A stretch of DNA of 64,000 nt, taken from Oscillospiraceae bacterium. GTDB taxonomy: Bacteria > Bacillota > Clostridia > Oscillospirales > Acutalibacteraceae. Numbering within the stretch: position 1 is the stretch's first letter; each line of letters begins with the position of its first letter. Of the stretch, positions 15,377-27,240 are shown in pieces. The position numbers and the translations under genes were made by a program. The stretch lies in NCBI GenBank assembly GCA_902796905.1, contig CADBQU010000004.1:1-64000 (forward strand), given 5' to 3'. Under the pieces are notes generated by a model. That model was not told the origin of the DNA, did not search any database, and saw only the letters and a list, made by a program, of their open reading frames with translations.

Positions 15377-15961
15377 TTATCTGTATGTATTTAATATATT
15401 TTTAGCTATTTCAAGTTTTGTTACACATCTGTTCATAGCTTGCTTTTCTATATATTTATGTGCTTCATTCTCAGACATTTTAAGGTTATCTATAAGTACC
15501 CATTTTGCCCTGTTGACCAAACGTATTTCTTCCATTTTTTCTTCTATGGAAGCTGTTTTTTGTTCCATACGCTTTAAGCGCTCTCTTGTACCGCAAAGCA
15601 AAATTAAAGATTGTGTAATCATAGCGGCGGTTGTGGGTTTTGAAAGAGTTAATACCCCGAACGGAGAAACCCTTGCGTTAATATCCGGATAATGTTCGCT
15701 TTTTACTAATAGCAAAACTCCCGTTCCGCTGCTTTCGCAAACATCCAACGCCAATTTTGTGCCGAAATCGTCCGGCAAAGGCGTATTTATAATAACAATA
15801 TCATAACTGTTTTCAAGCAAACTTCTTCTTGCGCCTGAAACATCTTTTACTATTATTTTGGGGCTGTAACGATTTTCGGGAAGTAAATCTAATATTGATT
15901 GATTGAATTTTTGAAATTGAGATACTATTAAAACACTGTAGCAATGCTCAATTAAATCCAT
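15377..15961 (-). CDS. ANTAR-domain RNA-binding response regulator (NitR-like)
   Basis: A 194-residue antitermination regulator. Residues 1 to about 120 form a receiver-like domain with a degenerate acidic pocket (SVLIVSQF at the start), so phosphorylation is doubtful; Asp occurs at DIVIINTPLPDD. A coiled-coil linker (RLKRMEQKTASIEEKMEEI) leads to a C-terminal ANTAR domain with the typical alanine and aromatic positions (RAKWVLIDNLKMSENEAHKYIEKQAM). ANTAR proteins bind RNA stems with six-base loops and block terminators. It lies 86 bases after glnA, probably in the same operon, like the glnA-linked nitR regulators described in solventogenic clostridia. Candidate targets are the hexaloops at 22507-22526, 22921-22936 and 23110-23125. 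Confidence 0.9.
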   Translation of the reverse strand: MDLIEHCYSVLIVSQFQKFNQSILDLLPENRYSPKIIVKDVSGARRSLLENSYDIVIINTPLPDDFGTKLALDVCESSGTGVLLLVKSEHYPDINARVSPFGVLTLSKPTTAAMITQSLILLCGTRERLKRMEQKTASIEEKMEEIRLVNRAKWVLIDNLKMSENEAHKYIEKQAMNRCVTKLEIAKNILNTYR

Positions 15962-16047
15962 TAATACTTCTCTCCTTCCCCAAAAATCAAAGTATAACTT
16001 TTGTTACCGATGTTTTTAAATTTAAAACTTTTAATCTTTTTAATATT

Positions 16048-17289
16048 TTAATCTTGCGTATAATTTTTAATTAAATTTTCGTTTAAATTTTCTTTAATAA
16101 ATAAGCTGTTTAATGCGTTTTCTTTTGCTTCCGCCAAAGTAAGCGGCAAAAGTTTAAAATCTTTAATTTTTTCTTTTTCCGCCAAATATAAATTAAAATC
16201 TGCGGGTTTTGGCAATTTTAAATTGTTTTTTACACCGTATATTCCCGCTTTTATTATTAAAGCAAAAGCCAAATAAGGATTGCACATAGGGTCTGCCGAA
16301 CGAAGTTCGGCGCGTTTATATTTACCGAAAGCCGCAGGAATACGTATAAGTTCCGAACGGTTTTCATTAGACCAAGTTACATATTTGGGTGCTTTGCTGT
16401 GTCCGAATCTTAAATAAGATTCATCCGTAATATTTAAAAATAATGTAATATCGTTTATTTTATCTAAAATTCCGGCTATTACGCATTGCATAATATTTTT
16501 TTCATCGTCTTTTAAATTATTTATTTTCGATTTTTTATTTTCCGCTACCGAAAAGTTAATATGCATACCGTTGCCGGCTTTATTTAATAAAGGCTTGGGA
16601 GAAAAATCTGCGTATAAACCGTTTCTTGCAGCCGCAGTTTTTACTACCGATTTAAAAGTTACGGCATTATCGGCAGCGGTTAAAGGATCGGAATATCTAA
16701 AGTCTATCTCATTTTGTCCCGGACCTTCTTCGTGATGGGAACTTTCGGGTATAATACCCATTTGCTCCAAAGTCAAGCAAATTTCTCGCCTTATATTTTC
16801 TCCTTTATCGTCGGGAGCTATATCCATATATCCGGCGTTATCGTAAGGAATAACTGTTTTTTCTCCGTTTTCGTTTAAATTAAATAAATAAAATTCCATT
16901 TCGGAGCCGAAAGAAAATTCCAGACCCATTTCTTTGGCTTCCTCTACGGCGTTTATTAAAACGGTTCTTGTATCGCATTCAAAAGGTTCGCCGTTAGGGT
17001 AAGTAATATTGCAAAACATTCTTACAACTCTTCCGTGCTCAGGTCTCCATGGCAAAACCGAAATAGTAGATGGATCGGGATGTAAAAATAAATCGGAATG
17101 AACCTTTACATTAAATCCCTTAATAGCAGAAGCGTCTATTGCAATACCGTATTCAAAAGCTTTTTCAAGTTCTTGCGGCATTATAGAAATATTTTTCTGT
17201 TGGCCGTAAATATCGCAAAAAGCCATTCGTATAAACTTAACGTCTTCTTCTGCAACATATTGCAAAACCTCGTTTTTTGAATACTTCAT
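16048..17289 (-). CDS. glnA: Type I glutamine synthetase
   Basis: Condenses ammonia and glutamate to glutamine using ATP. The N-terminal beta-grasp (VKFIRMAFCDIYGQQKNISI) is followed by the catalytic domain: GSEMEFYLF, the NEIDFRY metal site, GNGMHINFS, ENRSELIRIP and RAELRSADPMCNPYLAFAL. At 413 residues it is shorter than the usual 440-470, lacking part of the C-terminal region. The adenylylation loop is poorly conserved, as expected for Gram-positive enzymes not controlled by GlnE. It follows the GXGXG-domain gene of glutamate synthase, so GS and GOGAT are made from one transcript. A second, unrelated-type GS (GSIII) is encoded divergently in the same island. Confidence 0.94.
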   Translation of the reverse strand: MKYSKNEVLQYVAEEDVKFIRMAFCDIYGQQKNISIMPQELEKAFEYGIAIDASAIKGFNVKVHSDLFLHPDPSTISVLPWRPEHGRVVRMFCNITYPNGEPFECDTRTVLINAVEEAKEMGLEFSFGSEMEFYLFNLNENGEKTVIPYDNAGYMDIAPDDKGENIRREICLTLEQMGIIPESSHHEEGPGQNEIDFRYSDPLTAADNAVTFKSVVKTAAARNGLYADFSPKPLLNKAGNGMHINFSVAENKKSKINNLKDDEKNIMQCVIAGILDKINDITLFLNITDESYLRFGHSKAPKYVTWSNENRSELIRIPAAFGKYKRAELRSADPMCNPYLAFALIIKAGIYGVKNNLKLPKPADFNLYLAEKEKIKDFKLLPLTLAEAKENALNSLFIKENLNENLIKNYTQD

Positions 17290-17352
17290 AACAGTTTCCT
17301 TTCTTTTAAACCGTTCGGTTTTTAAATAAACCGAAAAATTTTAATTTTATTG

Positions 17353-18090
17353 TTAATTGGCTATATACATTTGTTTGTACGGGTTTGCGCTGTTAGGGGT
17401 AATTACCGTATATTCTTCGCTTAACATTTCTTTTTCGTTAAAATTAAAATATTTGCAAAAATTAGATATATACGGTTTTATTTCGTCTAAATCTTCTTTG
17501 GTGGCTTTACGTTTGGTGGTTTGACCCGGAAATTTAATGTTTTCGGCTTTTCCTCTTAAAATTAATTTTCCGCCGTGCATACCCGTAGAAGAAAAATTAC
17601 CTACCAAAGGCTTATCGTTTTTGGTCAACCCCAAAACAATAATTAATCCTCCCGCCTGGTATTCGCCTAAAAAGCTGCCGGTTTTTCCGCCTATTATAAT
17701 AACCGGTTTCTTTTCTTTATATTCTTTCATATGAATACCGGCCCTGTATCCGGCGTCGCCTTTAACATATATTTCTCCGCCGCGCATAGCGTATCCTGCG
17801 GCGTCGCCTATGTTGCCGTGTATAATAATTTTTCCGGCGTTCATAGTATCGCCTACGGCGTCCTGTGCATTGCCGTTTACGGTTATTTCGGCACCGGTTA
17901 AGTATGCGCCTAAAGCATTACCGGGAATTCCGTTAAGTTCAATTTTTTTGTTGTTCATACCGCTTGCTATAAAGCGCTGACCTGTTAAATCGGTTATTTT
18001 TACAGTGCCGTTTTTTTCATATTCCCGTATTTTATTGTTTAAATCTTTAAAATTCAGTTCTTTTGCATTAATTTCGATTGTTTTTTCCAT
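17353..18090 (-). CDS. Glutamate synthase GXGXG-domain protein (GltB3 type)
   Basis: A stand-alone version of the C-terminal beta-helix domain of glutamate synthase large subunit (245 residues). The repeated glycine turns are clear: ALGAYLTGAEITVNGNAQDA, GKIIIHGNIGDAAGYAMRGG, EIYVKGDAGYRAGIHMKEY and the later GGKTGSFLGEYQAGG. In fused GltB this domain supports the channel between amidotransferase and synthase sites. It overlaps the FAD oxidoreductase gene by one base and has a strong AGGAGGTG ribosome-binding site. Its neighbours supply the other GltB parts, as in archaeal-type split glutamate synthases. Confidence 0.92.
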   Translation of the reverse strand: MEKTIEINAKELNFKDLNNKIREYEKNGTVKITDLTGQRFIASGMNNKKIELNGIPGNALGAYLTGAEITVNGNAQDAVGDTMNAGKIIIHGNIGDAAGYAMRGGEIYVKGDAGYRAGIHMKEYKEKKPVIIIGGKTGSFLGEYQAGGLIIVLGLTKNDKPLVGNFSSTGMHGGKLILRGKAENIKFPGQTTKRKATKEDLDEIKPYISNFCKYFNFNEKEMLSEEYTVITPNSANPYKQMYIAN

Positions 18091-19334
18091 TATACCACAC
18101 CTCCTAAAATCTTTCTACGATAATTTTTTGAAAAAGCAAAAAGAGAAGGTTCTTTTTCCAAAACAGGTAAATCCACTTCGTTTATATCAATATTATTTCT
18201 TAAAATATTTGTGTAAATACCTGCATTTTTTACATTACCTATAAGTAAAAATCCAACCAATCTGTTATTTTTAAAATATAATTTTTTAATATTTTCTTTT
18301 CCTTTTTCGGTATAAATATTATCTGCGGTTTCTTCATTTCTGTCTCCGGCAGACATTGCGTAAAGTCCGAAAAAGCCGATTGAATTCATAGGTATGGGAT
18401 TATCAAATACTTCTTCTTTTCCCGCCATATTAATTCCCGCCGTTTTACCGCCTATATACGCGTTTGGCATAAGCGCCATAATTTTAGAGGTTTTACTTGA
18501 AAAATCTATTGTTTCGGTACAATCGCCGGCAGAATATATATTTTTTAAAGAGGTTTGGTTTTTATTGTTAACCACTATTCCTCTGTTTACTTCTCCGCCT
18601 ATATCTTTAATTAAAGAAACATTAGGTCTTACGCCCACGGCGGTTATTAAAATGTCAAATTCAACAGTTTCTCCGTTTTGCATAACGGCTTTATGGCCTT
18701 TGTATTCACTTACGGAATTACCCAAAGAAAACTCAAGGCCTTTTTCTTCTAATTTTGTTTGAATTATTTTTGCGCTTTCATCATCTAATATGCTGGATAA
18801 CACTCTTGTAGCCAAATCGCACACAAGTATGCTTTTAGCTCTTTCCAAAATGCCTTCGGCGCATTTTAAACCTATAAGACCTGCTCCTACAATTAAAACT
18901 CGACTGTTTATATTTATTGCCTTTTCTATTTTTTTTGCGTCGCTTAAAGTTAAAAATGTAAAACTGTTTTTAACGGTTTCCATACCCTTTACTTTAGGTA
19001 CAAAAGGACTTGAACCCGTGCAAACGCATAATTCGTCAAAATCTACTGTTTTATCATCCGAAAGCAAAACTTCTTTTTTATCGTTGTTAATTTTTACGGC
19101 TTCTTTATTATATAAAACTTTAACACTGTTATTTTTGTAAAAATCGTCGGGTCTTAATTTAATTTTTTCCAAATCTGTTTTGTTTTCTAAATAATAGGAA
19201 ATTAACGGTCTGGAATATACATGTTCGTTTTCTTTTGAAATTACGGTTATTTCTCCCGATTTATCTACCGAACGTATGCCTTCTATACATCCTACCGCCG
19301 CAGCTCCGTTTCCTATAATAACGTATTTTTTCAT
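18090..19334 (-). CDS. FAD-dependent NAD(P)H oxidoreductase of the split GOGAT cluster
   Basis: A 414-residue pyridine-nucleotide-disulfide oxidoreductase-like flavoprotein. The FAD-binding fold is at the N-terminus (VIIGNGAAAVGCIEGIR), a second nucleotide fold at about residues 143-160 (VLIVGAGLIGLKCAEGI) and the FAD-contacting ATG-like motif is NIYSAGDC. It resembles NADH-rubredoxin/nitrite-reductase large-subunit-type reductases. Context suggests it passes electrons from NAD(P)H to the adjacent ferredoxin and then the FMN domain, taking the place of the usual small subunit GltD; this is inference. Coupled to the downstream GXGXG gene by a one-base overlap. Confidence 0.88.
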   Translation of the reverse strand: MKKYVIIGNGAAAVGCIEGIRSVDKSGEITVISKENEHVYSRPLISYYLENKTDLEKIKLRPDDFYKNNSVKVLYNKEAVKINNDKKEVLLSDDKTVDFDELCVCTGSSPFVPKVKGMETVKNSFTFLTLSDAKKIEKAININSRVLIVGAGLIGLKCAEGILERAKSILVCDLATRVLSSILDDESAKIIQTKLEEKGLEFSLGNSVSEYKGHKAVMQNGETVEFDILITAVGVRPNVSLIKDIGGEVNRGIVVNNKNQTSLKNIYSAGDCTETIDFSSKTSKIMALMPNAYIGGKTAGINMAGKEEVFDNPIPMNSIGFFGLYAMSAGDRNEETADNIYTEKGKENIKKLYFKNNRLVGFLLIGNVKNAGIYTNILRNNIDINEVDLPVLEKEPSLFAFSKNYRRKILGGVV

Positions 19335-19400
19335 ATTTTTTACCTCTCGAATTTACGTTGTAAACCAAACACCGATTAATAATTTTTTATTGATTATAAT

Positions 19401-19829
19401 TTACCGTTCTTCGTAAACTATGGCTTTATTAGGACATCCGCTTACGCATGCCGGTTTATCAACATTATTTTTAATACATAATTCGCATTTTTGGGCTACG
19501 CCTTCGCCGTTTGGAGTTATTGAACCGTAAGGACATACCAAAACACAGGTTAAGCAACCGACGCATTTTGATGTATCTATACATATAACGCCGTCTTCTT
19601 TATGTAAGGCACCCGAAATACAACATTTTACGCATATAGGGTCTTCACAATGTCTGCAAGATACGGCAAACGTTATTTTATCGTTTCCTTCTACATGAAC
19701 TCTCGGATATATGGTTTTGTTTTTTAAAGCCTTAACCATATCGCTTATATGGGAATTTGCAAAAGCACAGTTATATTCGCATAAATGGCATCCCAAGCAC
19801 CATTTTTCATTTACATATACTCTTTTCAT
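19401..19829 (-). CDS. Four-cluster ferredoxin subunit
   Basis: A 142-residue iron-sulfur protein of the HycB/DmsB-like family. Four cysteine groups are visible: CLGCHLCEYNC (residues 11-21), SCRHCEDPICVKCC, KCVGCLTCVLVCP and CELCIKNN ... ACVSGCP, enough for about four [4Fe-4S] clusters. It probably carries electrons between the FAD oxidoreductase and the FMN glutamate synthase domain encoded on either side. The start overlaps the end of the FMN-domain gene by one base. The name of the partner is inferred from position. Confidence 0.9.
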   Translation of the reverse strand: MKRVYVNEKWCLGCHLCEYNCAFANSHISDMVKALKNKTIYPRVHVEGNDKITFAVSCRHCEDPICVKCCISGALHKEDGVICIDTSKCVGCLTCVLVCPYGSITPNGEGVAQKCELCIKNNVDKPACVSGCPNKAIVYEER

Positions 19830-21334
19830 TATTCTCCTGCATGTGAGATTCCTAAAATCTCAAGCTCCTTTTCAGTTAAATTAACGCCTCTTAACATTAA
19901 ACGGTTGCCTCTTAAAGCTTCAATAGAGTTTATACCCATACCGCCCATAAGTTCCTTAATTTCGTGTTTCCAGGCGGTCAATAAATTTACAAGTCTTTCG
20001 GTACCTATATCGGGGTTTAAACGCTTTACCAAATCCGGTCTTTGGGTAGCTATACCCCAGTTACATTTACCGGTTTGGCAAGTTCTGCACAAATGACAGC
20101 CCAAAGCTATTAATGCGGAGGTTGCTATATAGCAGGCGTCTGCACCCAAAGCTACGGCTTTAACCACATCTGCCGCAGACCTTATACTTCCGCCTACTAC
20201 CAAAGAAACGTTATTTCTTATACCTTCATCTCTAAGCCTTTGGTCAACAGCCGCTAAAGCAAGTTCTATAGGAATGCCCACATTATCTCTTATTCTGGTA
20301 GGGGCCGCTCCCGTGCCGCCTCTAAAGCCGTCAATAGCAATAATATCCGCGCCGCTTCTTGCAATACCGCTTGCAATAGCCGCTATATTATGCACTGCCG
20401 CAACTTTTACTATAATAGGTTTTTTATATTCTGTTGCTTCTTTTAAAGAAAATACCAGCTGGCGTAAATCTTCTATTGAATAAATATCGTGATGCGGAGC
20501 CGGAGAAATTGCGTCGGAACCTTCGGGAATCATTCTGGTTTTTGATACGTCCCCTACTATTTTAGCACCCGGTAAATGTCCGCCTATACCGGGTTTTGCA
20601 CCCTGCCCCATTTTTATCTCTATTGCGGCACCCGCATTTAAATATTCCTCGTGAACGCCGAAACGTCCCGAAGCTACCTGTACTATCGTATTAGGTCCGT
20701 AGCAATAAAAATCTTCGTGAAGTCCGCCTTCGCCGGTATTATAATAAATACCCAATTCTTTAGAGGCTCTTGCCAAACTTTCATGTGCGTTATAGCTTAT
20801 AGAACCGTAACTCATAGCCGAAAACATTACCGGCATAGAAAGCTCTAACTGAGGAGTGAGCTCGGTGTTAATTGAGCCGTCGGGGTTTCTTTTAATTTCA
20901 CTTGGTTTTTTACCTAAAAATACTTTTGTTTCCATAGGCTCTCTTAAAGGGTCTATGGGCGGGTTTGTTACCTGAGAAGCATTAATAAGTATTTTATCAA
21001 AATATACCGGCAGCGGATTTGGGTTTCCCATAGAGGAAAGCAGCACTGCGCCGGAGGACGCTTGTTTGTATATTTCTTTTATTGTACTTTGCTGCCAGTT
21101 TGCGTTTTCTTTAAATGTACATTCATTTTTAACTATTTTTAAAGCGTTTGTGGGGCAAAGCGAAACACATCTTAAACAGTCTACGCACTTTGTTTCGTCG
21201 CTTAACATTAAATTTAAGTCTTTATCAAATCTATGTACTTCGTTTGAGCACTGCCTTTCGCAAACTCTGCAAGCAATACACCTATCTTTGTTTCTTATAA
21301 TATCGTATTCCGGTGTAACATATCTTATTGCCAT
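19829..21334 (-). CDS. Glutamate synthase FMN domain with N-terminal ferredoxin module
   Basis: The synthase core of glutamate synthase (GltB2 type, 501 residues). Residues about 15-70 form a two-cluster ferredoxin module (CIACRVCERQC, CVDCLRCVSLCP). From about 80 comes the FMN-binding TIM barrel: SAMSYGSIS, NTGEGG, EIKMGQGAKPGIGGHLPG, APHHDIYSIEDL, VVGGSIRSAADVVKA, and the [3Fe-4S]-type cysteines CHLCRTCQTGKC. It forms glutamate from 2-oxoglutarate and ammonia delivered by the separate amidotransferase. The fused ferredoxin module marks the archaeal/clostridial stand-alone form. Overlaps by one base at both ends show tight coupling. Confidence 0.95.
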   Translation of the reverse strand: MAIRYVTPEYDIIRNKDRCIACRVCERQCSNEVHRFDKDLNLMLSDETKCVDCLRCVSLCPTNALKIVKNECTFKENANWQQSTIKEIYKQASSGAVLLSSMGNPNPLPVYFDKILINASQVTNPPIDPLREPMETKVFLGKKPSEIKRNPDGSINTELTPQLELSMPVMFSAMSYGSISYNAHESLARASKELGIYYNTGEGGLHEDFYCYGPNTIVQVASGRFGVHEEYLNAGAAIEIKMGQGAKPGIGGHLPGAKIVGDVSKTRMIPEGSDAISPAPHHDIYSIEDLRQLVFSLKEATEYKKPIIVKVAAVHNIAAIASGIARSGADIIAIDGFRGGTGAAPTRIRDNVGIPIELALAAVDQRLRDEGIRNNVSLVVGGSIRSAADVVKAVALGADACYIATSALIALGCHLCRTCQTGKCNWGIATQRPDLVKRLNPDIGTERLVNLLTAWKHEIKELMGGMGINSIEALRGNRLMLRGVNLTEKELEILGISHAGE

Positions 21335-22425
21335 TAAAAGGCACCTTCTTTCACTTTAACTATAACCGGTTCTCCGCCCGAAGGAGCATATATATTTTTT
21401 GCATTGGGCTCCATCACTCTTATTGCCGCTTCTTCGCTTGCAATAAATACTTTATCGTCTTTTTCTCCTATTACCATAGAACGAAGTTTAAGGCGGTCGT
21501 TTAATGCCATAAGTCCGCCTTCAAATCCTAAAATAATAGAAAAAGGACCGGTTATAAGCAAGCTGGGATAAATTTTTCTTAAAAAGCTTAATTTTTCGGC
21601 TTCTTTAGGGCCTTTATTTTGTATTGTGCTCCAAAACGGGGCAGCAATTACCGAAGCGGTTTCTTCTAAAGTAAGTTTTTGTTTTCTTAATAAATAATCG
21701 GCTATATATGTTATAACCTCCGTATCGGTTTTAAGCATACATTTATAACCGAACATTTCTATGTATCTTCTGTTGGCGTCGTAAGAAGATATTTCGCCGT
21801 TATGAACAATAGAATAATCAAGTAAAGCAAAGGGATGCGCTCCGCCCCACCAACCCGGAGTATTTGTGGGGTATCTTCCGTGAGCGGTCCAAGAATATGC
21901 TTCGTATTCGTCTAACCTGTAAAATCTTCCTACATCTTCCGGAAAACCTACCGCTTTAAAAGTACCCATATTTTTTCCGCTTGAAAAAACATAAGCTCCT
22001 TTTAAGTTTGTGTTTATATGCATAACGGTTCTTGCCACATATTCTTTTTCGTCTAATTGAAGTCTTGATAATATAGAAGCCAAAGGCGCTACAAAATATC
22101 TCCATATTAAAGGAACATCCGTTATTTCTTTAATTTTTTTAATGGGTATATTCTCGGCTTTTACAATTTCAAATCTGTCTTTTAAAAGCTTTTCGCATTC
22201 TACTCTCGAATCGTTATCATTATAAAAAATATGAAAAGCGTAAAATTCTTTATATTCCGGGTAAATTCCGTATGCCGCAAAACCGCCGCCCAATCCGTTT
22301 GAACGGTCGTGCATAGGTACCATACTTTTTATAATACTTTCTCCGGTCATTTTTTTGCCTTCTTTGGAAATTACCGCAGAAATTGCGCAACCCGAAGGTA
22401 TACGTACTTCTCCCTCTATTTTCAT
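21334..22425 (-). CDS. Glutamate synthase class II amidotransferase domain (GltB1 type)
   Basis: Releases ammonia from glutamine for the synthase subunit. It is a class II (Ntn) amidotransferase of 363 residues. The candidate nucleophile is Cys13 in IPSGCAISAV, so the first twelve residues would be cleaved to free the N-terminal Cys; this leader is normal in the stand-alone form. Later motifs are MHDRSNGLGGGFAAYG, HGRYPTNTPGWWGGAHPF and NGEISSYDANRRY, expected for glutamine binding. First gene of the glutamate-synthase/glnA operon, about 175 bases after the promoter with an attenuator-like leader. Confidence 0.93.
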   Translation of the reverse strand: MKIEGEVRIPSGCAISAVISKEGKKMTGESIIKSMVPMHDRSNGLGGGFAAYGIYPEYKEFYAFHIFYNDNDSRVECEKLLKDRFEIVKAENIPIKKIKEITDVPLIWRYFVAPLASILSRLQLDEKEYVARTVMHINTNLKGAYVFSSGKNMGTFKAVGFPEDVGRFYRLDEYEAYSWTAHGRYPTNTPGWWGGAHPFALLDYSIVHNGEISSYDANRRYIEMFGYKCMLKTDTEVITYIADYLLRKQKLTLEETASVIAAPFWSTIQNKGPKEAEKLSFLRKIYPSLLITGPFSIILGFEGGLMALNDRLKLRSMVIGEKDDKVFIASEEAAIRVMEPNAKNIYAPSGGEPVIVKVKEGAF

Positions 22426-22465: not shown

Positions 22466-22519
22466 AATAAAAAAGGCGTCCATTCCAAAAAGGATAAATC
22501 CTTAAGAATGAACGCCTTT
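22466..22519 (-). terminator. Attenuator terminator in the glutamate-synthase operon leader
   Basis: Read on the minus strand, AAAGGCGTTCATTC pairs with GAATGGACGCCTTT (14 bases, one G-T pair); the loop holds a smaller AAGGAT/ATCCTT stem; a T run follows. It lies between promoter and first gene, so it would stop transcription by default. Its 5' arm is shared with the hexaloop stem at 22507-22526. Confidence 0.85.
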
Positions 22520-22526
22520 GCTCATT
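22507..22526 (-). ncRNA. ANTAR-type hexaloop stem, glutamate-synthase leader
   Basis: On the minus strand AATGAGC and GTTCATT form a 7-base stem (one G-T pair) closing the loop AAAGGC, with A at position 1 and G at position 4 as reported for ANTAR targets. The loop and 3' arm are also the 5' arm of the downstream terminator, so the two folds exclude each other. No second, upstream hexaloop was found in this leader. Confidence 0.7.
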
Positions 22527-22881: not shown

Positions 22882-22909
22882 TTGACAAATTAAAAATACG
22901 GTGTATAAT
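22882..22909 (+). promoter_or_regulatory. Promoter of the GSIII gene
   Basis: TTGACA, 16-base spacer, TATAAT. The predicted start near 22916 puts the first hexaloop at the very 5' end of a leader of about 400 bases. The stretch from here back to 22635 is AT-rich and shows nothing else I can name. Confidence 0.8.
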
Positions 22910-22920
22910 AATTGACATAA

Positions 22921-22936
22921 AAGGCAATGACGTCTT
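22921..22936 (+). ncRNA. ANTAR-type hexaloop 1, GSIII leader
   Basis: AAGGC and GTCTT (one G-T pair) close the loop AATGAC, which has A1 and G4. The loop and 3' arm overlap the 5' arm (GACGTC) of the terminator that follows, giving mutually exclusive folds. Confidence 0.7.
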
Positions 22937-22972
22937 AGAGTTTTATTTCTCTTTGACGTCTTTTTCTTTTTT
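22929..22972 (+). terminator. Attenuator terminator 1, GSIII leader
   Basis: GACGTC pairs with the second GACGTC 26 bases later, then a TT/TT internal loop and AGAG/CTCT, loop of eight bases, followed by TTTTTCTTTTTT. Only about 13 bases lie between the predicted start and this stem. Confidence 0.8.
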
Positions 22973-23106
22973 ATAAACTGTTTACGGTTATTTATTAAGT
23001 ATTTGTTATTTTAGTGTTAAACGGTAATTTTAAAATTAAAATAATACTTATAATATAATTACTTAATAATATAAACTAAGCATTACAATTAAATAATTAA
23101 AAATTT

Positions 23107-23157
23107 AAAGAGGCAATGGGGTCTTGTTTTACGGTCCTGCTGCCTCTTTTATTTTTT
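23107..23157 (+). terminator. Attenuator terminator 2, GSIII leader
   Basis: AAAGAGGCA pairs with TGCCTCTTT, with an inner GGGTC/GGTCC stem, then TATTTTTT. It is a second transcription stop in the same leader, about 160 bases before the gene. The DNA between the two attenuators is AT-rich with a possible weak TATAAT at 23049-23054. Confidence 0.8.
23110..23125 (+). ncRNA. ANTAR-type hexaloop 2, GSIII leader
   Basis: GAGGC and GTCTT close the loop AATGGG (A1, G4). It repeats the sequence pattern of hexaloop 1 (AGGCAATG, two variable bases, GTCTT). Its 5' arm is also the 5' arm of terminator 2. Confidence 0.7.
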
Positions 23158-23315: not shown

Positions 23316-25412
23316 ATGAAAACAGTATCTGATTATTTCGGCAGCTTGGTTTTTGATGACCGTATAATGAAATCTAAACTTTCAGCCGATGTTTACAGAT
23401 CACTCAAAAAAACAATTGACGAAGGGGCGAGTTTAAAAAACGATGTAGCTAATGCGGTAGCTTCGGCTATGAAAGAATGGGCCATAGAACACGGCGCTAC
23501 ACACTTTACGCATTGGTTCCAGCCTTTAACCGGTATTACAGCCGAAAAACATGACAGTTTTATTTCCCCTGCTCCGGACGGCGGAGTAATAATGGAATTT
23601 TCCGGTAAGGAATTAATTAAAGGCGAACCGGACGCGTCATCATTTCCTTCGGGCGGTTTAAGAGCAACCTTTGAAGCCAGAGGTTATACGGCGTGGGATC
23701 CTACTTCTTATGCTTTTATTAAAGACAAAACCTTGTGTATTCCTACTGCGTTTTGTTCTTACGGCGGAGAGGCTTTGGATAAAAAGACTCCTCTTTTAAG
23801 AAGTATGGAAGCTTTAAATAAACAGGCATTAAGAATTTTAAAATTATTCGGCAGAGACGATGTAAAATGCGTAAGAACTTCTGTAGGACCGGAACAGGAA
23901 TACTTTTTAGTTGATAAAGAAATGTACGAAAAAAGAAAAGATTTAATGTTCTGCGGCAGAACTCTTTTCGGTGCCAAACCACCTAAAGGTCAGGAAATGG
24001 ACGACCACTATTTTGGCGTTATAAAACCCAGAGTAGCCGAATATATGGCGGATTTAAATGAAGAACTTTGGAAACTCGGAATTTTAGCCAAAACCGAGCA
24101 TAACGAAGTAGCACCCGCACAACACGAATTGGCGCCTATATATGCCACTACAAACATAGCTACCGACCATAACCAAATTACAATGGAAATTATGCAAAAG
24201 GTTGCTTCAAAACACGGTTTGGTTTGCTTATTACACGAAAAACCGTTTGCGGGCGTAAACGGAAGCGGTAAACATAACAACTGGTCTATGGCTACCGATA
24301 AGGGCGATAACCTTTTAACTCCGGGCGAAACCCCCTATGAAAACGCACAGTTTTTATTATTCTTATGTGCGGTTATAAAAGCGGTAGATGATTATCAGGA
24401 TTTACTTCGTTTATCCGTAGCTACGGCGGGCAACGACCACCGTTTGGGTGCAAACGAAGCACCTCCTGCAGTAATTTCTATGTTTTTGGGCGATGAACTA
24501 ACCGCTGTTTTAAAGGCTATAGAAAACGATACGCCTTACAGCAATCACGAAAAAACGGTTATGAAATTAGGCGTTCATGTTTTACCAAAATTTACGCGTG
24601 ATACAACCGACCGTAACCGTACTTCCCCGTTTGCTTTTACCGGCAATAAATTTGAATTCAGAATGTTGGGTTCTTCTAACAGCATTGCTTGTGCAAACAT
24701 TATGTTAAACGCAGCCGTAGCCGAATCTTTAAAAGTTTATGCGGACCGTTTGGAAAACGTTGAAGATTTTGAAACAGCGCTTCACGATATGATTAAAAAG
24801 ACAATAAAAGACCACAAACGAATTATATTTAACGGTAACGGATATGATGACGCATGGATTAAAGAAGCTACAGAAAAACGCGGACTTTTGAATTTAAAAA
24901 CCACACCCGACGCATTACCTACTATTTTAGAGAAAAAGAATGTAGATATGTTAACTTCTCATAAAATCTTTTCTAAAGCAGAAATTCAGTCCCGTTACGA
25001 AATAACTTTGGATAACTATTCAAAACAGGTAAATATAGAAGCCGAAACAATGGTTGATATGGCAAGAAAAGAAATTTTACCGGCAATTGAAAGCTATGCC
25101 AAAGATATTTCAAAAACACTTATTGCAAAAACAAAAGTTTTACCGGAACTCCCCGGCAAATACGAAAAGAATTTAATTTCTAAATTATCTGCTTATGCCG
25201 ACGGCATTGATTCGGCAACAAGTGAGCTTGAAAGCGCAATTATTGAATTTAAAGCTATAGAAGATGTAACAGAAGCCGCAAACTTTATAAGAGATGTAAT
25301 TCTTCAAAAAATGGCGGAATTAAGGGTTGTATGTGATGAAGCAGAAGCCGTTACATCCGAAAAATATTGGCCGTTCCCAACTTATGATAAGTTGTTGTTC
25401 GGCGTAAGATAA
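23316..25412 (+). CDS. glnN: Type III glutamine synthetase
   Basis: A GSIII enzyme (698 residues; the family is about 700-730), structurally distinct from GSI and common in Bacteroidetes and Clostridia. Visible family features are [11 protein letters not shown] (about residues 60-72), [31 protein letters not shown] (metal-binding Glu), [43 protein letters not shown] and [16 protein letters not shown]. The ATG at 23316 has AAGGAG eight bases upstream; an upstream GTG overlaps that site. It is transcribed away from the GOGAT/GSI operon through a leader with two hexaloop/terminator units, and is followed by the Amt-PII gene. Having GSI and GSIII in one island suggests use under different nitrogen supply. 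Confidence 0.96.
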
Positions 25413-25498: not shown

Positions 25499-25521
25499 AA
25501 CTTTAAGAGGAAGTGTTAAAA

Positions 25522-27240
25522 ATGACTTTAAGTGCTGTAAACACTATATGGGTATTATTAGGTGCAGCTCTTGTTTTCTTTATGCAAGCCGGATTTTCTA
25601 TGTGTGAGGCAGGTTTTACAAGAGCAAAAAACACAGGTAACATTTTAATGAAAAACCTTATGGACTTTTGTATAGGTACTCCTTGCTTTTGGCTTGTAGG
25701 TTTTGGCGTTATGTTTGGCAGCGGAACCGCATTATTCGGTTGGATTGACCCGCTTATTATGAAAGACTACAGTCATATATTGCCGGCGGGTGTTCCGCTT
25801 TGGGCATACGCAATATTCCAAACTGTTTTTTGTGCCACAAGCGCAACAATAGTTTCGGGAGCTATGGCAGAAAGAACAAAGTTTAGTGCATATTGTATTT
25901 ATTCTGCCGCAATTTCGCTTTTAATATATCCTATTTCCGGACATTGGATTTGGGGCGGCGGCTGGTTAAGCCAATTAGGTTTCCACGATTTTGCTGGTTC
26001 TACCGCAGTACATATGGTAGGCGGTATATGTGCTTTAATCGGTGCTGCTATATTGGGACCGCGTATCGGTAAATATGATAAAAACGGCAAACCCAGAGCT
26101 ATTTTAGGACACAACTTAACCTTTGCTGCTTTAGGCGTATTTATTTTATGGTTCTGCTGGTTTGGATTCAACGGTGCTTCTACCGTTGCTATGGATTCGG
26201 ACAAAGCTATAAAAAGCGCAGGTTTAATATTCTTTAACACAAACCTTGCTGCCGCAGTAGCTTGCTGCACAACTTTAATATTTACATGGTTAAGATACGG
26301 TAAGCCCGATGTTTCTATGACTTACAACGCAGCTTTGGCAGGCTTGGTTGGTATTACAGCCGGATGCGACGCAGTTGATCCTTTGGGTGCCGCAATAATG
26401 GGCGTAGTATTTGGTTTGGTTATTGTTTTGGCAGTAGAATTCTTTGATAAAGTAGCAAAAATAGACGACCCCGTAGGCGCTATTTCGGTACACGGTGTTT
26501 GCGGTGCTTTAGGAACAATTCTTACCGGTTTCTTTGCAACAGGCGTATCTACCGAAAAAGGTGTTTTCTACGGCGGCGGATTCCATTTCCTCGGAGTACA
26601 GGCTTTAGGCGTTGTTTCGGTAATGGCTTATGTTGCGGTAGTAATTACCATAGTTTTCTTAATTATTAAACATACAATCGGTTTAAGAGCAGACGAAGCA
26701 GACGAAATAGCAGGTTTGGATGTTTCGGAACACGGCTTACCTACCGCTTATGCAGGTTTTGCAATGTTACCCGATACAATAGTAGCAGACGAAGACACTG
26801 TAGCGGTTACAGGAGATGTTCCGGTAGCAGAGGCTGTTCCGGTTAAAAAAATGCCTACCTTTAACGAAGGTACGGAAGATTTGCCTAAATTTACAAAGGT
26901 AGAAATTTTGTGCAAAGAATCTAAATTTGAAGCTCTTAAAAAAGCTCTTACCGATATAGGTATTACAGGTATGACGTTATCTCACGTTTTGGGCTGCGGT
27001 ATTCAAAAAGGCAAACCCGAATATTACCGTGGTGTTGAAGTAGAGGCAAACTTATTACCGAAAATTCAACTTGATATAGTTGTAAGCAAAGTTCCCGTAA
27101 GAAAAGTTATTGATACTGCTAAAAAAGTATTGTATACAGGACATATAGGCGACGGTAAAATATTTGTTTACGATGTTGAAAACGTTGTTAAAGTACGTAC
27201 CGGTGAAGAAGGTTACGAAGCTTTGCAGGACGTAGAATAA
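25522..27240 (+). CDS. Ammonium transporter with fused C-terminal PII domain
   Basis: An Amt/MEP/Rh channel of about 410 residues followed by a linker (about 415-455) and a complete PII (GlnB/GlnK) signalling domain of about 110 residues. Amt features: MQAGFSMCEAGFTRAKN, the twin pore histidines in STAVHMVGG and AISVHGVCGALG, and about eleven membrane helices. PII features: KVEILCKESKFEALKKAL, GITGMTLSHVLGCGIQKG, T-loop EYYRGVEVEANLLPK and GHIGDGKIFVYDVENVVKVRTGE. The position of the uridylylated Tyr51 of enteric GlnB is Val (codon at 27040). In other bacteria a free GlnK plugs Amt; here the plug is tethered. The ATG at 25522 follows AGAGGAAG. Confidence 0.95.
   Translation: MTLSAVNTIWVLLGAALVFFMQAGFSMCEAGFTRAKNTGNILMKNLMDFCIGTPCFWLVGFGVMFGSGTALFGWIDPLIMKDYSHILPAGVPLWAYAIFQTVFCATSATIVSGAMAERTKFSAYCIYSAAISLLIYPISGHWIWGGGWLSQLGFHDFAGSTAVHMVGGICALIGAAILGPRIGKYDKNGKPRAILGHNLTFAALGVFILWFCWFGFNGASTVAMDSDKAIKSAGLIFFNTNLAAAVACCTTLIFTWLRYGKPDVSMTYNAALAGLVGITAGCDAVDPLGAAIMGVVFGLVIVLAVEFFDKVAKIDDPVGAISVHGVCGALGTILTGFFATGVSTEKGVFYGGGFHFLGVQALGVVSVMAYVAVVITIVFLIIKHTIGLRADEADEIAGLDVSEHGLPTAYAGFAMLPDTIVADEDTVAVTGDVPVAEAVPVKKMPTFNEGTEDLPKFTKVEILCKESKFEALKKALTDIGITGMTLSHVLGCGIQKGKPEYYRGVEVEANLLPKIQLDIVVSKVPVRKVIDTAKKVLYTGHIGDGKIFVYDVENVVKVRTGEEGYEALQDVE

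Follow-up and report, generated by a model that had tools for sequence, protein, structure and literature searches.

How is transcription into the type III glutamine synthetase (GSIII) gene of an Oscillospiraceae bacterium controlled, if its leader carries, one after the other, two hairpins with hexanucleotide loops, each entangled with a candidate terminator? The locus lies within a stretch of 64,000 nucleotides that was analysed as a whole (the window), and in which an original prediction had placed hexaloop hairpins ending in GTCTT at 22922-22936 and 23111-23125. The sequence agrees with it: both loops are hexanucleotides with A at position 1 (A1) and G at position 4 (G4), as in ANTAR-target RNA, and both sit on a stem of 5 bp, where at least 3 bp are characteristic of such targets. 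The leader and the genes behind it comprise the following features:

22882 to 22909, plus strand: sigma-70-type promoter of the GSIII leader, TTGACA-16-TATAAT, matching the consensus at 12 of 12 positions
22921 to 22936, plus strand: hexaloop hairpin 1, AAGGC[AATGAC]GTCTT, with A1 at 22926 and G4 at 22929; the stem covaries in relatives
22929 to 22972, plus strand: terminator 1, GACGTC-AGAG / CTCT-GACGTC (22929-22960), then the T run TTTTTCTTTTTT (22961-22972)
23107 to 23157, plus strand: terminator 2, arms AAAGAGGCA and TGCCTCTTT (23107-23149), then a T-rich tail to 23157
23110 to 23125, plus strand: hexaloop hairpin 2, GAGGC[AATGGG]GTCTT, with A1 at 23115 and G4 at 23118
23316 to 25412, plus strand: GSIII, the putatively regulated gene (Pfam GSIII_N, 4e-81; translation P0001)
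25513 to 27240, plus strand: ammonium transporter with a C-terminal P-II domain (Amt-PII; Pfam Ammonium_transp and P-II in one ORF)

The Amt-PII gene is probably co-transcribed with GSIII; a scan of the 100-nt gap upstream of it found no unit, that is, no hexaloop hairpin with an overlapping terminator. The consensus promoter implies a transcription start near 22916, ∼5 nt before hairpin 1, which agrees with the distance of about five bases originally predicted, and relatives keep the distance from promoter to hexaloop (A1 usually 12-18 nt downstream of the −10).

The exact sequence GGCAATGNNGTCT occurs twice in the window, as opposed to not once in 100 dinucleotide shuffles, and only three times in the genome (1.64 Mb), which was covered by pattern and model searches; two of these copies are those of the GSIII leader, and the third lies in coding-looking surroundings. 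When two mismatches were tolerated, 7 sites were found versus 6.8 expected; as this search was uninformative, exact matches and structure were used instead. The hexaloop hairpins by themselves are weak (−3.6 and −3.4 kcal/mol for hairpins 1 and 2, respectively). The stretch of unit 1 folds at −18.5 kcal/mol (z −6.9), and that of unit 2, with flanks, at −20.3 kcal/mol (z −4.4). Hairpin 1 contributes its 3′ arm and positions 4-6 of its loop to the 5′ arm of terminator 1, and in unit 2 the 5′ stem arm of the hairpin is sequestered by the terminator as well. Thus, each hairpin overlaps a terminator of its own that ends in a T run, as had been predicted, and the folds show hairpin and terminator to be mutually exclusive. 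A simple terminator scan picked up neither terminator of the GSIII leader, probably because of their internal mismatches. In the source genome, a covariance model of the unit gave a strong match at unit 1 (E 1e-7) and a weak one at unit 2 (17.6 bits, E 0.59); a second unit similar to unit 2 is present in one relative (L018).

Conservation of both structures was assessed by covariation. Across 46 distinct hexaloop hairpins, 92.6% of the cells in the stem were paired (77.1% in shuffles), a value into which pairing is partly built, because the pairs adjacent to the loop, unlike the outer ones, had been selection criteria. Double changes numbered 39 versus 15.5 in shuffles, and the covariation score was 0.606, compared with 0.308 when shuffled and at most 0.213 when the partner was slid. 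Three of the five stem pairs vary on both sides (e.g., GC:30/AU:16 and CG:25/AU:13), and one position is mostly G:U (25/46). In 68 aligned units, the terminator, which starts at loop position 3, showed double changes at 10 of its 13 pairs. As hairpin and terminator both covary, both of these mutually exclusive structures are preserved. An inverted repeat that directly follows a promoter at a fixed distance might also be a DNA operator for a repressor instead of an RNA element, but this is very hard to credit: G:U, the commonest pair at one stem position, is not palindromic at the DNA level, the loop is conserved and asymmetric in its letters, and units also occur where no strong promoter is nearby (L025, L027-L029, L031, and L032), always with an overlapping terminator. 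The G:U pairs and the asymmetry of the loop led to rejection of the operator.

A candidate reader of these RNAs is encoded on the opposite strand, at the end of a run of nitrogen genes that diverges from GSIII and has a unit of its own:

15377 to 22425, minus strand: gltS (GATase, FMN, ferredoxin, oxidoreductase, GXGXG)-GSI-ANTAR run, from ORFs and Pfam
15377 to 15961, minus strand: ANTAR protein with N-terminal pseudo-receiver, last gene of the gltS-GSI run (PF03861, 58 bits)
22469 to 22526, minus strand: third unit, in the leader of the gltS run, AATGAGC[AAAGGC]GTTCATT with overlapping terminator, found by scanning

The run is presumably one operon. Its glutamate synthase does not form a single ORF: GATase, FMN domain, and GXGXG are encoded separately, alongside a ferredoxin-type ORF and an oxidoreductase, and a short GSI and then the ANTAR gene follow. 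The third unit folds at −29.6 kcal/mol (z −6.5), and 11 relatives have the element in their divergent leaders as well, at a distance of 12-17 nt from the −10. In the source genome, the distance to the best −10 on this strand is larger, which makes the start site of the gltS run uncertain.

PF03861 has a single match in the source genome, namely this ANTAR gene, 7.4 kb from the units of the GSIII leader. The ANTAR proteins carry the domain at the C-terminus and score 55-58 bits, compared with a curated cut-off of 27.3; the protein of the source genome matches Rv1626, AmiR, NasR, and EutV by sequence. In alignments, it retains the EutV residues Lys149, Glu160, Met172, and Asn173 and has His for Tyr164, as does AmiR, whereas the RNA-contacting arginines 142, 168, 175, and 177 of EutV are not conserved. 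In place of the phosphoacceptor Asp of EutV it has Asn, and the receiver lacks this Asp in all 21 aligned proteins (that of the window and L155-L174), where the position is mostly Asn (INSPLPDD). Phosphorylation is therefore unlikely to activate it as it does EutV; by analogy with AmiR, a protein partner would be the more likely route. AmiR-type ANTAR proteins with a pseudo-receiver (PMC7496416) are alike in lacking the phosphoacceptor Asp and in having a coiled coil and a C-terminal ANTAR domain, but among the genes examined here no AmiC-like partner was identified.

If the units are ANTAR targets, their occurrence should follow that of the protein. In the family sample, GSIII was present in 164 of 200 genomes, and 107 upstream stretches of GSIII could be oriented. 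Under a fixed rule (C:G-closed ANNGNN loop, stem, and overlapping terminator), a unit was present in 55 of 68 GSIII leaders of genomes encoding ANTAR but in 5 of 39 from genomes without it (Fisher 6e-12, relatedness ignored); an energy-based terminator call gave 59/68 and 5/38, respectively. Relatedness was taken into account on the GSIII tree, where six independent pairs on well-supported branches agreed in ANTAR and unit in 4.9 and disagreed in 0.1 cases on average (median p 0.06), which is supportive of the association, though such pairs are few. The covariance model matched 119 of 343 genomes of the class; of these, 112 encode ANTAR, compared with 73 of the 224 without a match (3e-31; relatedness not controlled). 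The best 29 loci across the class, picked without gene information, lie mostly directly upstream of GSIII and in some cases by Amt. Also, the GSIII and ANTAR genes are no more than 11 kb apart in 42 of the 84 genomes having both. The originally predicted control by ANTAR is thus well supported by this comparative evidence, which is one of co-occurrence in genomes.

Association is not binding, and units are retained without ANTAR in 5 GSIII leaders and 7 model-positive genomes of the class. Another RNA-binding protein, or a small ligand, co-inherited with ANTAR might therefore read the hairpins, and tandem leaders of the ligand type do exist, as in the cyanobacterial glnA RNA (PMC2864571). We regard this as improbable, for the A1/G4 identity of the loop fits ANTAR chemistry, linkage of the ANTAR gene to GSIII is frequent, and a hairpin of 16 nt offers little room for a ligand pocket. 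Moreover, a search of the window and 18 related loci against Rfam matched no family at the gathering threshold; below it, only chance matches of the miRNA type appeared.

Comparison with GSIII leaders of related genomes, which the original prediction had called for, revealed that units in series recur: 19 of the 55 unit-bearing leaders placed on the GSIII tree carry at least two, and the tandem state changed at least eight times on that tree. The sister of the source genome (L015) also has two units, and another relative (L026) has, by eye, three. Successive units, and with them their hexaloops, are 57-194 nt apart in leaders with several of them, 189 nt in the source genome, and 57-66 nt in several relatives. 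The serial arrangement, originally taken for an oddity, is thus common in the family; the larger departure, found throughout the class, is that each unit has a single hexaloop. Two further observations concern the form of the units. GSIII leaders from other genera (L075-L154) contain a further subclass of stem, CAGC[AAAGGC]GCTG instead of AGGC/GUCU, in which the logic of loop and terminator is unchanged; it, too, occurs as single promoter-proximal units. Terminators sequestering the whole hexaloop were seen in 9 of 19 later but in only 2 of 19 first units (p 0.03), a difference too weak to build on.

The spacing also bears on whether the two units of the source genome are in series at all. The 189 nt between them accommodate a promoter-like match (10/12) at 23030-23059, upstream of unit 2, so that two promoters might each feed one attenuator, and the units would then work in parallel. 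We think this unlikely. Promoter-like matches in this AT-rich stretch are at background level (8 found versus 8.9 expected), and the spacing of 57-66 nt in relatives leaves no room for a promoter. Given the latter, serial control from one promoter is, as far as leader sequences can tell, more likely to be the rule.

The two attenuators in series that had been predicted are well supported by the comparison, but they are not whole units in the classical sense, which would have a pair of hexaloops each. Where Ramesh et al. (2012) define ANTAR targets by two hexaloops per terminator, only one was found per terminator, and instead of a short linker, the distances given above separate successive hexaloops. 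When hairpins 11-21 nt after the −10 were collected from leaders of ANTAR-encoding genomes with the loop letters unselected, nearly all were of the AANG type. In 32 promoter-proximal leaders with a single unit, the stem begins 2-9 nt after the earliest plausible start, so no upstream first hairpin (P1) fits, and most of the top matches of the covariance model elsewhere in the class have the same geometry.

P1 and a second, terminator-overlapping hairpin (P2) act together in every ANTAR antitermination system characterised to date, so it must be asked whether a P1 accompanies each terminator-overlapping hexaloop but went unnoticed, or whether hexaloop 1 serves as P1 of hexaloop 2. Four leaders (L042, L096, L098, and L100) do contain, between both units, a further A1/G4 hexaloop with a strong stem but no terminator, which in L096 reads CAATCC[AACGGG]GGATTG; it could be the recruitment hairpin of the second unit. 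However, a search for a classical P1 in the 32 single-unit leaders found additional A1/G4 hexaloops in 3, versus 4.1 expected from shuffles. Many leaders have only a single unit, the start leaves no space for P1, and a spacing of 57-194 nt, interrupted by a terminator, greatly exceeds the linker of 5-12 nt in eut, or of up to 25 nt (PMC8164766). We therefore consider a classical target with paired hexaloops improbable here.

Taken together, the leader probably contains promoter-proximal ANTAR antiterminators with one hexaloop each, two of them in series, which would serve nitrogen assimilation; this reading rests on comparative sequence evidence. Each attenuator would combine one hexaloop hairpin for ANTAR to bind with one terminator; because the two have bases in common, only one can form at a time. 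By default, the far more stable terminator would fold, and most transcripts would stop near 22972 or 23157. Under nitrogen limitation, the condition presumed to activate it, the ANTAR protein (15377-15961) would bind the nascent hexaloop via A1 and a flipped-out G4; the bound hexaloop would then occupy the 5′ arm of the terminator, and polymerase would pass. Both units would have to be passed to reach GSIII and Amt-PII; because of this, the readthrough probabilities are proposed to multiply. The sharper or two-step response originally suggested for serial units is plausible. The single unit before gltS-GSI-ANTAR would be read by the same ANTAR protein, resulting in positive autoregulation, and ANTAR would govern its own production provided that the run is indeed one operon.

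Several elements of this scheme are familiar. The leaders of eutP and other eut genes read by EutV, of amiE read by AmiR, and of nasF read by NasR (Ramesh et al, 2012; PMC3369931) likewise have A1/G4 hexaloops on short stems, a P2 overlapping the terminator, nitrogen genes, and ANTAR in the genome. They differ from the GSIII leaders in that the latter have one hexaloop per terminator, at the 5′ end of the transcript, and, in place of P1 and P2 on a short linker, may carry several such units at intervals of 57-194 nt. Transcription units with more than one ANTAR-controlled terminator are also known: Desulfotomaculum acetoxidans has 13 ANTAR elements in 6 transcription units (PMC3369931), and four terminators are present in eut of E. 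faecalis (PMC8934654). Those serial elements have dual hexaloops, whereas the units of GSIII leaders have single ones, and the eut terminators are spread along the operon, whereas the GSIII units occupy one 5′ leader before one gene.

The single hexaloop conflicts with the dual-hexaloop definition and with what EutV requires, namely, two hairpins joined by a short linker; antitermination by EutV depends on both hexaloops, and lengthening the linker abolishes it (PMC3369931 and PMC8934654). At the same time, hexaloops are contacted singly by the EutV dimer, and the structural unit that an ANTAR dimer binds is one hexaloop (Walshe et al, 2022; PMC8934654), as it would be in the GSIII leaders. 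Why the dimer needs two hairpins was left open in that study, searches for single hexaloops were called for, and single sites were expected only where polymerase imposes no time limit; the single sites of GSIII leaders, in contrast, overlap terminators. A literature search outside subscription journals for single hexaloops with ANTAR yielded only this one study. Serial ANTAR elements in a transcription unit are thus already known, and single-hexaloop antiterminators are a suggestion, made for situations without polymerase timing. Clostridium saccharobutylicum has NitR, which we take to be an ANTAR regulator encoded beside glnA and gltAB. Literature searches on NitR and on GSIII leaders returned nothing usable.

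On balance, we favor a class of ANTAR attenuators with a single hexaloop at the 5′ end of the transcript, for which P1 would not be essential and in which stacking would tighten the control of nitrogen assimilation; such a class would have been overlooked because published search models require two hairpins. Many genomes thereby offer natural predicted targets in which a single hexaloop overlaps the terminator, with one, two, or three units per leader, on which one can directly test what the recruitment hairpin does and how stacking acts. For a large group of bacteria, the proposed outcome is a nitrogen-assimilation regulon of GSIII, Amt-PII, gltS, GSI, and ANTAR itself, which would be read by a pseudo-receiver ANTAR protein.
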